From Sphingobium quisquiliarum P25 (GTDB lineage: Bacteria > Pseudomonadota > Alphaproteobacteria > Sphingomonadales > Sphingomonadaceae), in the NCBI RefSeq assembly GCF_000445065.1, contig NZ_ATHO01000055.1, positions 1-64,000 on the forward strand: 64,000 bases of DNA, read 5' to 3'. The notes under the pieces were generated by a model. It was given only the letters and a program-made list of their open reading frames with translations, ran no database searches and had not been told where the DNA came from. The translations under genes and the position numbers were made by a program. Numbering within the stretch: position 1 is the stretch's first letter; the number at the start of each line of letters is the position of its first letter. Below are positions 4,201 to 60,788 of the stretch, piece after piece.

Positions 4201-5748
<1,548 letters not shown>

Positions 5749-7733: not shown

Positions 7734-8198
7734 ATGTTCGATATTCGGCAGGACGATCTTAGCAGTGACGGGACGCGCGAACTGCTGGCGCTGCATCTTG
7801 CGGATATGCACGCCAGTTCGCCGCCAGGCAGTGTGTTTGCCCTAGACCTGCCGGCTTTGAAAAATCCTGCGGTCACGGTCTGGACGGCTTGGCACGGCGA
7901 TTACATTGCGGCGGTCGGCGCCTTGAAGATTTTGGAAGAGGGCTTGGCCGAGATCAAATCCATGCGCACGCATCCGCATTTTCTGCGAAGAGGCGCTGGA
8001 GCGGCGATCCTGGAGACCATTATCGCTGCCGCAGTTGCGCGTGGCATCCGGCGGCTGAGCCTGGAAACGGGCAGCGGGGCGGCATTCGAACCGGCTCTGG
8101 CGCTATATCGGCGGCGGGGCTTCAGAAATGGGGCCGCTTTCGGCAGCTATGAGAAAAGCGCGTTCAACCAGTTTCTGCATCTTGACCTTGCGGAGTGA
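7734..8198 (+). CDS. GNAT family N-acetyltransferase
   Basis: 154 residues with the GNAT fold: EIKSMRTHPHFLRRGAG carries the acetyl-CoA pyrophosphate-binding R/Q-x-x-G-x-G/A segment, and LALYRRRGF is motif B. The start at 7734 gives MFDIRQDDLSSDG, whereas the longer frame from 7683 has an atypical N-terminus. It resembles the YsnE/PhnO branch that acetylates small amines or antibiotics, but the substrate cannot be deduced. It converges with rsmA across an 81-bp gap. Confidence 0.85.
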   Translation: MFDIRQDDLSSDGTRELLALHLADMHASSPPGSVFALDLPALKNPAVTVWTAWHGDYIAAVGALKILEEGLAEIKSMRTHPHFLRRGAGAAILETIIAAAVARGIRRLSLETGSGAAFEPALALYRRRGFRNGAAFGSYEKSAFNQFLHLDLAE

Positions 8199-11556: not shown

Positions 11557-11599
11557 TCCGCCTTAACCGGTCCTGAGCGGAGGGCGGGAAGGATGATCC

Positions 11600-21337: not shown

Positions 21338-21411
21338 TGGAGGCCCGAGCCGGAATCGAACCGGCGTATACGGATTTGCAGTCCGCTGCGTCACCACTCC
21401 GCCATCGGGCC
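21338..21411 (-). tRNA. tRNA-Cys (GCA)
   Basis: Reading the minus strand from 21411: a 7-bp acceptor stem (ggcccga / tcgggcc), D-arm, anticodon stem-loop with GCA, T-arm with ggttcgattcc, the discriminator T typical of tRNA-Cys, and an encoded CCA at 21340-21338. It stands alone downstream of the permease gene, on the opposite strand. Confidence 0.95.
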
Positions 21412-23759: not shown

Positions 23760-24239
23760 GTGGGTGACATGAGCAAGGAACCCTCGATGGAGGACATCCT
23801 CTCGTCCATCAAGCGCATCATCGCGGAAGAGGGTGAGGAAGCCGCGCAGTCCATGTCCCGCCGCGGCCGGGCCGAGGCGAAGCAGGCTCCAGCCGAGCAG
23901 CCGATGCCCGAAGAAGTGCTGGAACTGACCGACGAGGTCCATGTGGAGGAGCCGATGCCCGCCCATAAAGCTCCGCCCGCCGATGCCGTGTCCGCCGCCG
24001 CGCCGCCGCCGCAGAAGGATGAGTCCATCCTGTCGGTCGAAAGCGAAGTCGCCGCGCGCCATTCGCTTTCCGCTCTGTCGTCCATGCTCGTCACGCCCAG
24101 GGATGGGGAAGACAATACGCTGGACGGGCTGGTCCGGTCGATGTTGAAACCGATGCTCAAGGAATGGCTCGACGCGCGCCTGCCTGCGCTGGTCGAGGAC
24201 ATGGTCGCCAAGGAAATCGCCCGCATCACGGCGCGCTGA
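23760..24239 (+). CDS. popZ: PopZ-like polar organizing protein (DUF2497)
   Basis: 159 residues with the PopZ pattern: a short N-terminal helix (SMEDILSSIKRIIAEEGEE), a long disordered acidic/Pro-rich middle (about 30-105), and a conserved C-terminal oligomerisation block (LVRSMLKPMLKEWLDARLP...VEDMVAKEIARI). In Caulobacter PopZ forms a polar condensate that captures ParB-parS and signalling proteins. The location just upstream of valS is conserved among alphaproteobacteria. The start may be GTG 23760 or ATG 23769. The middle domain is much shorter in acidic content than in Caulobacter. Confidence 0.8.
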   Translation: MGDMSKEPSMEDILSSIKRIIAEEGEEAAQSMSRRGRAEAKQAPAEQPMPEEVLELTDEVHVEEPMPAHKAPPADAVSAAAPPPQKDESILSVESEVAARHSLSALSSMLVTPRDGEDNTLDGLVRSMLKPMLKEWLDARLPALVEDMVAKEIARITAR

Positions 24240-24303
24240 TATTTCGTGAATTTGTAACATCTTTTTCGCAGGCGATGCTATCATCGGGCGGAAGGGGTGT
24301 TCC

Positions 24304-24892
24304 ATGAAATCGATTTTAGCTGGTGGCGGGCTGCTGATCCTGGCGGCTTGTCCTGCTTTCGCGCGCGAACCTGTAGGGCCGACGCCCCGGGCCAGCCCAG
24401 GCAGCTGGTTCAGCGACAAGGATTATCCCACATCCGAAAGCGCGAAGGGGTCGAGTGGGACGGCTGCCTTCAATCTGCTGGTTCAGGAAGATGGGGCGTC
24501 AAGGATTGCCGCATCGTGCAGAGCAGCGGCTCCCCTGCGCTGGATGCGACGACTTGCGCCCTGTCAAGGAAAGGGCCTCCTTCTATCCCGCGCGGGACGG
24601 GAAGGGCCGGAAGATCGAATCCATCTATTCCGGGCGTATCACATGGCGCCTGCCAGCGGGTTCGGTGGTCCCGTTTCCCGAACCCCAGACGCTGATCATC
24701 ACGGTCGACATCAGTAGCGAGGGAGTGGTGGAAAAATGCAGCAGCGTCAAATCTGGAGAGTTTGAGGTGCCTGTCGACCCGTGCATGCGTTATCCGGTGG
24801 GGCTTAAGGGGCGCGTCTATGCGGGGCCGGACGGCAAGCCCGTAGCGGCGCGCTATATCGAGCGGATCACGCACGAAATACAATCGCGGTAG
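24304..24892 (+). pseudogene. TonB C-terminal-domain protein broken by two -1 frameshifts
   Basis: The first frame from ATG 24304 gives a signal peptide (KSILAGGGLLILAACPAFA) and runs to FNLLVQEDG. The TonB-like text then continues in a second frame (VKDCRIVQSSGSPALDATTC) and finally in a third (VKERASFYPARDGKGRK...) to a stop at 24890-24892. Each step needs one missing base, near 24493-24498 (a G run) and near 24561-24563. The third frame ends with a second TonB-like repeat (ITVDISSEGVVEKC). As read, the protein cannot be made whole: it is a young pseudogene or the result of two sequencing errors. Confidence 0.75.
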
Positions 24893-24945
24893 GACCGGGA
24901 ACGGCGCTATTTGATCTTCCCGCCCTTGCCGCTAAAGCGCCTCCC

Positions 24946-27645
24946 ATGACCGAACTGCCCAAGACCTTCGACCCCGCTGAAATCGAATCCCGCTGGTATG
25001 CCCATTGGGAGCAGAATGGGCTGTTTCGCCCGGAACGGCCGGACGCGGAACCCTTCACCATCGTGAACCCGCCGCCGAACGTCACGGGCAGCCTGCACAT
25101 CGGCCATGCGCTCGACAATACGTTGCAGGATATCGTTATCCGGTACGAGCGGCTACGCGGCAAGGATGCCTTGTGGGTGGTCGGCACGGACCATGCGGGC
25201 ATCGCGACGCAGATGGTGGTCGAGCGGCAGATGGAGGCGCGACAGGACAAGCGCACCAACTATACGCGTGAGCAGTTCATCGAGAAGGTGTGGGAGTGGA
25301 AGGCGGAAAGCGGCGGCGCGATCACGCGGCAGCTGCGGCGCCTGGGCTGCTCGATGGACTGGGCCAATGAGCGCTTCACCATGGATGAGGGCTTTTCGCG
25401 CGCCGTCATCAAGGTGTTCGTCGAACTGCACCGGCGGGGCCTGCTTTATCGCGACAAGCGGCTGGTGAACTGGGACCCGCGTTTCCGCTCAGCCATCTCC
25501 GATCTTGAGGTCGAAACGCAGGAAGTGAAGGGCGGCTTCTGGCATTTCCGCTATCCCCTGGCCGATGGCGTTCGCCTCGCCGATGGAGCGGACCATATCG
25601 TGGTCGCGACCACGCGGCCCGAAACCATGCTGGCGGACATGGCGGTCGCGGTGCATCCCGAAGACCCGCGCTACAAGGACGTCATCGGCAAGGACATCCT
25701 CCAGCCGATCACCGGCCGCCGCTTCAAGGTGATAGGCGACGAACATGCCGACCCCGAACTGGGATCGGGCGCGGTCAAGATCACGCCGGGGCATGACTTC
25801 AACGATTTCGAAGTGGGCAAGCGGGCGGGCTTCCGTCCGGCGGAAATGCTCAATATGTTCGATGCCGACGCCAATGTGATCCAGACGGCGGACGGGCTGA
25901 TCCCTGAACGGTTCCTGGGCCTGCACCGCTTCCGGCGCGACGGCGTGGACGGCGCGCGCGAACTGGTCGTGGCGGAGATGAAGGCGCTCGGCCTGCTGGT
26001 GCCGCATGTGTCGAAGAACAAGGATGGCGAGGAAATCCTGTCCGACGCGGAGCCGCGCACCATCCAGACGCCCTTTGGCGACCGTTCGGGTGTGGTGATC
26101 GAACCCTGGCTGACCGATCAATGGTATGTCGATGCGGAGAAGCTGGCGGTCGCGCCGATGCAGGCGGTGCGCGACGGGCGGATCGAGATCGTGCCCAGGA
26201 CGTGGGAAAAGACCTTCTTCAACTGGATGGAAAATATCCAGCCCTGGTGCGTGTCGCGCCAGCTTTGGTGGGGGCATCGGATCCCGGCCTGGTATGACGA
26301 GGATGGCAATCCTTATGTCGCGGAAAGCGAGGAAGAGGCGCAGGCACTCGCCGGTAACAAGAAGCTGACGCGCGATCCCGATGTGCTCGACACCTGGTTC
26401 TCCTCCGCTCTGTGGCCCTTCGGCACGCTGGGCTGGCCGGAAGAGAGCGACACGCTCAAGCGCCATTATCCCAATGACCTGCTGATCTCCGGCTTTGACA
26501 TCCTGTTCTTCTGGGATGCGCGCATGGCGATGCAGGGGCTGGAGTTCATGGGCGATGTGCCGTGGCGCAAGCTCTACCTCCACGGTCTCGTGCGCGCGGC
26601 GGACGGGCAGAAAATGTCCAAGTCCAAGGGCAATGTCGTCGATCCGCTGGGGCTGATCGACAGGTTCGGCGCCGACGCGCTGCGTTTCTTCATGGCGGCG
26701 ATGGAAAGCCAGGGCCGCGACGTGAAGATGGATGAGAAGCGGGTCGAGGGCTATCGCAACTTCGCGACCAAGCTGTGGAACGCGGCCCGTTTCCTGCAAG
26801 CCAACGGCGTCGCCGGATCGGCCACCCACGAAGCGCCGCATGCGCAGGCGCCGGTCAACCGCTGGATCGTCGCAGAGACCGTTGCGACGGTGCAGGCGAT
26901 CGACACCGCCATGGCCGAATTGCGCTTCGATGCGGCGGCCAACGCCATTTATCATTTCGTCTGGGACCAGTTTTGCGACTGGTATATCGAACTCAGCAAG
27001 GGGCAGATGGACGAGGAAACCCGCGCTGTCGCGGGATGGGCGTTCGACCAGATTCTGGTCATGCTGCACCCTTTCATGCCGTTCATTACCGAAGAGTTAT
27101 GGCATGCCATGGGCGAGCGGGACTGCGACCTGATCGTCGCGCGCTGGCCGCAGGCTCTCTATGCCGTGGACAGCGAGGCGCAGGCGGAGATCGATTGGCT
27201 GATCCGCCTGATCAGCGCCATGCGCACCGCGCGGACCGAACTCAACGTGCCCCCCGGCGCGAAGCTGCGGGTCGTGGTCAGCGACGCGTCGGACGAAACA
27301 CGCCGCCGGATAGACCGGCAAGGCGCTGCGCTCGCGCGGCTTGGGCGGGTCGAAAGCCTGTCCTTCGGTGAGGAGGTCACTGGCGGCGCGGCGCAGATCG
27401 TCGTCGATGAAGCGACCTTCATCCTTCCGCTGGAAGGGGTGATCGATATCGCGGCTGAAAAGGCGCGGCTCGCCAAGGCGCTGGCTGCTGCTGAAAAGGA
27501 GCGGGATGCGCTGGGCGGCCGCTTGTCGAACCCGGCTTTCGTGGAGAAGGCCAAGCCCGAAGCCGTCGCCAAGGCGCGCGAGGACCATGCGGAAAAGACG
27601 GCGGAGGCGGAAAAGTTGAAGGCGGCGCTGGACCGGCTCGCCTGA
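24946..27645 (+). CDS. valS: valyl-tRNA synthetase
   Basis: Class I synthetase, 899 residues. The HIGH motif is in [16 protein letters not shown], the CP1 editing domain lies near 200-350, and KMSKS is in [16 protein letters not shown]. The C-terminal coiled coil (about 835-899, [19 protein letters not shown]) packs against the tRNA elbow. The start [14 protein letters not shown] matches the family. It is preceded by the PopZ-like gene and the broken TonB-like gene. Confidence 0.98.
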
Positions 27646-60720: not shown

Positions 60721-60788
60721 GGGATGTAAGTGATTGCCGCAACCTCTGGCCGCGCGCATCATTCTCTCATCCGTGAAGGAGAGGTGTG

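Follow-up and report, generated by a model that had tools for sequence, protein, structure and literature searches.

A TonB-like gene divided among three reading frames upstream of valS in Sphingobium quisquiliarum P25, a probable recent pseudogene

The window, that is, the whole stretch of 64,000 nucleotides of contig NZ_ATHO01000055.1 that was analyzed, contains a TonB-like gene whose protein can be read only by passing through three reading frames. Such a gene may have been disabled in the living genome, or the bases may be missing only from the draft sequence. The question here is which of these accounts for the gene. The current work indicates that it is probably a recently disabled gene, an ordinary case of a pseudogene, and that an error in the draft is the less likely answer.

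Two frame breaks and two intact orthologues

The gene occupies 24304-24892 of the forward strand and consists of 586 coding bases and a stop codon distributed over three frames (Table 1). A single protein of 196 codons requires two frame changes, near 24495 and near 24563. At each junction, one base is both the last of one piece and the first of the next, leaving every step one base short. Beyond the first break, the open reading frame from 24304 is no longer in the ancestral frame, and it meets a stop at 24717. No in-frame stop was found across the 196 codons of the reconstructed gene, and the coding potential of the read-through is positive by only a small margin (0.055 per codon), too little to be informative.

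Table 1. Features of the TonB-like gene and its neighbors in the window
Feature	Position	Strand	Remarks
DUF2497 gene	23760..24239	+	upstream neighbor; PF10691, E 1.5e-23
Piece 1	24304..24495	+	start codon, hydrophobic N-terminus, beginning of the TonB_C domain; corresponds to residues 1-64 of both orthologues
First frame break	24493..24498	+	one base short; beside GGGG at 24493-24496; frame step from piece 1 to piece 2
Piece 2	24495..24563	+	middle of the TonB_C domain; aligned to both orthologues
Second frame break	24560..24566	+	one base short; frame step from piece 2 to piece 3
Piece 3	24563..24892	+	end of the TonB_C domain, second lobe and stop codon 24890-24892 (piece itself 24563-24889)
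valS	24946..27645	+	downstream neighbor; PF00133, E 7.3e-143; PF10458, E 6.7e-13

The two breaks are 68 bases apart. The first-pass annotation had noted a G run at the first and suggested a base-calling problem in GC-rich runs. The first break does adjoin a GGGG; at the second, the nearest run is a CCC, and none reaches four bases. Elsewhere in the gene, nine runs of four or more are intact, four of these being GGGG. The hexamer TCAAGG directly follows both breaks.

In two genomes of the same genus, G005 (L059) and G012 (L060), a copy of the gene in a single open frame lies directly before valS; G012 matches Sphingobium chungbukense DJ77 NZ_LBIC01000021.1. The two orthologues, each of 196 residues, share an identity of 54%. 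The three pieces align with each of them without gaps and in a single continuous frame, over residues 1-64 of piece 1, residues 2-23 of piece 2 and residues 1-109 of piece 3, with exactly one codon between the aligned parts of pieces 1 and 2 and none between those of pieces 2 and 3. The identity of piece 2 is 77% to G005 and 64% to G012, and that of piece 3 is 54% to each over 109 residues. In alignments to the two orthologues, scores were 140 and 154 for the mature part of piece 1, 84 and 77 for piece 2, and 340 and 338 for piece 3; the maxima from 500 shuffles were 47 and 45, 43 and 38, and 69 and 51, respectively.

The DNA, the list of open reading frames and these gap-free alignments thus confirm the three-frame gene and the two breaks, each requiring one base, that the first-pass annotation had described. 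Its view that the pieces form one coherent protein is borne out by the single frame of both orthologues; as for the signal peptide that it named, the N-terminus of piece 1 looks signal-peptide-like by eye.

Conserved residues are retained about as in the orthologues, with 74 of 100 in the window and 74 of 103 in each orthologue when the six codons at the breaks are omitted. The lack of an in-frame stop and of excess decay is as compatible with a very recent loss as with a sequence error.

Gene loss before valS and frame breaks elsewhere

In a sample of 13 stretches around valS from relatives, in which G012 was included because it had already been matched, the TonB-like gene was present and intact before valS in G005 and G012 and absent from that place in the other 11. 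The gene order is DUF2497, S9 peptidase (PF00326), TonB-like gene and valS in G005, and peptidase, TonB-like gene and valS in G012. The DUF2497 neighbor in the window is presumably PopZ-like. Six stretches (G020, G041, G066, G025, G077 and G019) have the S9 peptidase without the TonB-like gene, and five (G042, G086, G054, G039 and G085) have neither; in three of the latter (G042, G086 and G054), DUF2497 and valS are separated by only 109-117 bases. Outside G005, the peptidase was recognized by eye from similarity. A valS tree (537 bases, 14 genomes), which served solely to view this patchy presence, groups the window with G020 at a weak support of 0.38. The window therefore sits at a place where the TonB-like gene and the peptidase are often lost.

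The S9 peptidase gene of the relatives is absent from the gap at 24239-24304 of the window. No close copy of the peptidase was found in the genome to which the window belongs, where the best match, located on another contig, has an identity of 31% (E 2.3e-8).

The assembly is a draft of 181 contigs with a completeness of 100 and a contamination of 0.04. An initial orthology scan of the window, with the stretches of G041, G042, G005 and G012 as the reference, gave 25 frame joins, six of them at the TonB-like gene. When only the frame with the best score was retained at any position, five joins were left. Most of the joins dropped in this step, which included two near 11581 and 36732, resembled open frames lying upstream or on the opposite strand; the only one inspected singly, near 60770, was rejected since it is in a region whose genes lie on the opposite strand. 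After filtering, the TonB-like gene was the only real break. The join at 4267 was a short stretch before an open reading frame, that near 8047 was a weak match of 25-28%, and two fell at tRNA-Cys (21338-21411, reverse strand). Around this tRNA gene, mechanical open reading frames on both strands look conserved.

A codon-model scan was extended beyond the window. Without filtering, the numbers of transitions at penalty 12 were 15 for the genome itself and 12 for the control; of the former, 13 lay no farther than 28 bases from a stop, as overlapping genes would. After filtering, at penalties 10, 8, 6 and 4, it made 0, 1, 2 and 15 calls in 278,699 bases of the genome itself and 1, 4, 4 and 13 calls in 200,000 bases of two relatives. 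At the same penalties, 87, 87, 81 and 80 of 142 planted breaks were recovered, meaning that about 4 in 10 are missed; the TonB-like gene itself was not called. Within these limits of the scan, the assembly shows no excess of frame breaks.

At penalties 8 and 6, the calls in the genome itself, which are possible frame transitions, were at L070 18836 (both penalties) and L071 7108 (penalty 6). In the control, frame transitions were called at L081 5575 to 6297 of the relative G041, one of which was kept at penalty 10; a broken gene may be present there.

Pseudogene, draft error or a product still made

Two properties of a pseudogene were found for this gene: an intact orthologue at the same place, in both G005 and G012, and a disabling change that truncates the product, namely the two frame breaks. 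A recent loss, the probable explanation, would have begun from an ancestor in which valS was directly preceded by genes for an S9 peptidase and for a two-lobed, secreted protein of the TonB_C type. In the window lineage, the peptidase gene would have disappeared and the TonB-like gene would have lost one base at each of two places, presumably in that order, with both bases lost in the living genome. Translation from 24304 would then run off-frame to 24717, such that the second lobe would be missing entirely from the product, along with the greater part of the TonB_C domain. The product of the broken gene is likely not functional.

The first-pass annotation had left the choice between a recent pseudogene and a base-calling problem in GC-rich runs. 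Both alternatives were apt, and the losses at this locus together with the lack of another real break in the window now lean toward the recent pseudogene. A local sequencing or assembly error, in which the living strain would have an intact gene and the draft would be short of one base at two near places, is unlikely but has several points in its favor: the fragmentation of the draft, the GGGG adjoining the first break, and the lack of both stops and excess decay among conserved residues. A patch of poor sequence would likewise produce two breaks at a distance of only 68 bases, which counts against a pseudogene. According to PMC3711429, moreover, a singleton frameshift validated by BLASTp is expected to reflect a sequencing error and not a genuine indel. 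The TonB-like gene resembles the frameshifted pseudogenes and singleton frameshift genes of PMC3711429, in that its breaks are absent from orthologues and the whole protein is matched in relatives; it differs from them in having two breaks within one short gene. An error is opposed, however, by the orthology scan, in which the window has no other real break, by the 279 kb codon-model scan without an excess, and by the completeness and contamination values of the assembly. The TonB-like gene, furthermore, is often absent in relatives anyway. The idea of miscalled runs in particular is weakened, as a single break lies beside a run of four, the second is outside such runs and the nine others in the gene are intact. 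A recent pseudogene was rated the probable explanation and an error the unlikely one because the context of gene loss and the lack of excess breaks were given more weight.

Explanations in which a useful product is still made have far less probability. Programmed or tolerated frameshifting, by which ribosomes or RNA polymerase would slip at both places and yield the full protein, would agree with the conserved residues being kept in the three pieces as well as in the orthologues; it is extremely improbable, however, as both orthologues use one plain frame and thus have no conserved frameshift site, and two independent slips within 68 bases would be required. The hexamer at the breaks was rejected as a frameshift motif and is regarded as a chance feature: it also occurs in the intact gene of G005, a hexamer was common to 1121 of 20000 random pairs of sites 68 bases apart, and 175 of the 215 TCAAGG sites in the sample are inside single-frame open reading frames of 150 aa or more. 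A shortened functional product from an internal start is also very improbable. An open reading frame of 145 aa does run, for example, from GTG 24455 to 24892 with the second lobe retained, but it enters the ancestral frame only at 24563 and lacks the N-terminal hydrophobic segment, and a simple scan of 24150-25000, which is weak evidence, found no promoter-like or terminator-like site.

A real loss, which appears probable, would add another instance of gene decay at a locus where Sphingobium-type genomes repeatedly lose the peptidase and the TonB_C-type protein; in the case of an error, one draft gene is to be corrected. Neither outcome alters general understanding.

The intact protein and its distribution

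Each intact orthologue has one Pfam TonB_C (PF03544) match, at residues 39/40-117, with E 2.1e-15 and 2.2e-16 and scores of 57.3 and 60.5 bits, both above the cut-off of 24.6. The window copy, in contrast, is split, and no separate piece reached the curated cut-off in the profile search; piece 2 alone gave E 0.0046, under that cut-off. In a predicted model of the S. chungbukense protein, of modest quality and low confidence (mean pLDDT 66.5, pTM 0.44), the TonB_C domain is followed by a second lobe of similar appearance, both with the order strand-strand-helix-strand. In this second lobe, by which the model differs from the TonB_C family, the helix is very short and the final strand is of low confidence. 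When the model was compared with solved structures, the first 12 matches were TonB or FusB C-terminal domains, and none of the 164 matches was at E 0.001 or better.

Classical TonB has a three-part layout, as described in PMC7142613. The orthologues resemble the energy transducer in their one TonB_C domain; by reading, however, their spacer from the hydrophobic N-terminus to the domain is about 13 residues, no long proline-rich linker is present, and an extra C-terminal lobe follows. The short spacer and the lack of a linker do not suit the layout of a classical energy transducer. Thus, the description of the gene as TonB-type is appropriate for its domain and not for a classical energy transducer. 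It is conceivable, though rather doubtful, that the orthologues represent a small family of two-lobed TonB_C proteins lacking an anchor, which would be exported to the periplasm and would act there on transporters of the outer membrane but not as energy transducers, and that the window lineage is losing its copy along with the S9 peptidase. This little-studied two-lobed protein would itself merit a look.

In the genus, a DNA search matched 7 of 94 genomes, the own genome counted, and most of the gene was covered only in the own genome, G012 and G005. A protein search with piece 3 gave matches at E 0.001 or better in 60 of the 94; besides the own genome, the strong ones were G005 and G012 only (E 8.5e-39 and 1.5e-38), followed by one at 1.2e-11. 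Among 72,556 plasmid records, five matched, and none reached a query coverage of 80%. A scan of public genomes with piece 3 returned 60 stretches with no relative among them. With the orthologue pair, 63 stretches were returned, with two relatives among them, S. chungbukense DJ77 and, at a greater distance, an Erythrobacter MAG; the 223-aa open reading frame of the latter has a proline-rich N-terminal half and was set aside as looking like a classical TonB. The family-wide search gave matches at E 1e-25 or better in 67 of 397 genomes. The best match outside the genus (G298, L089; E 5.3e-49) is an open frame of 221 aa that is not beside valS, with neighboring open reading frames that are taken to be groEL-like and der-like.
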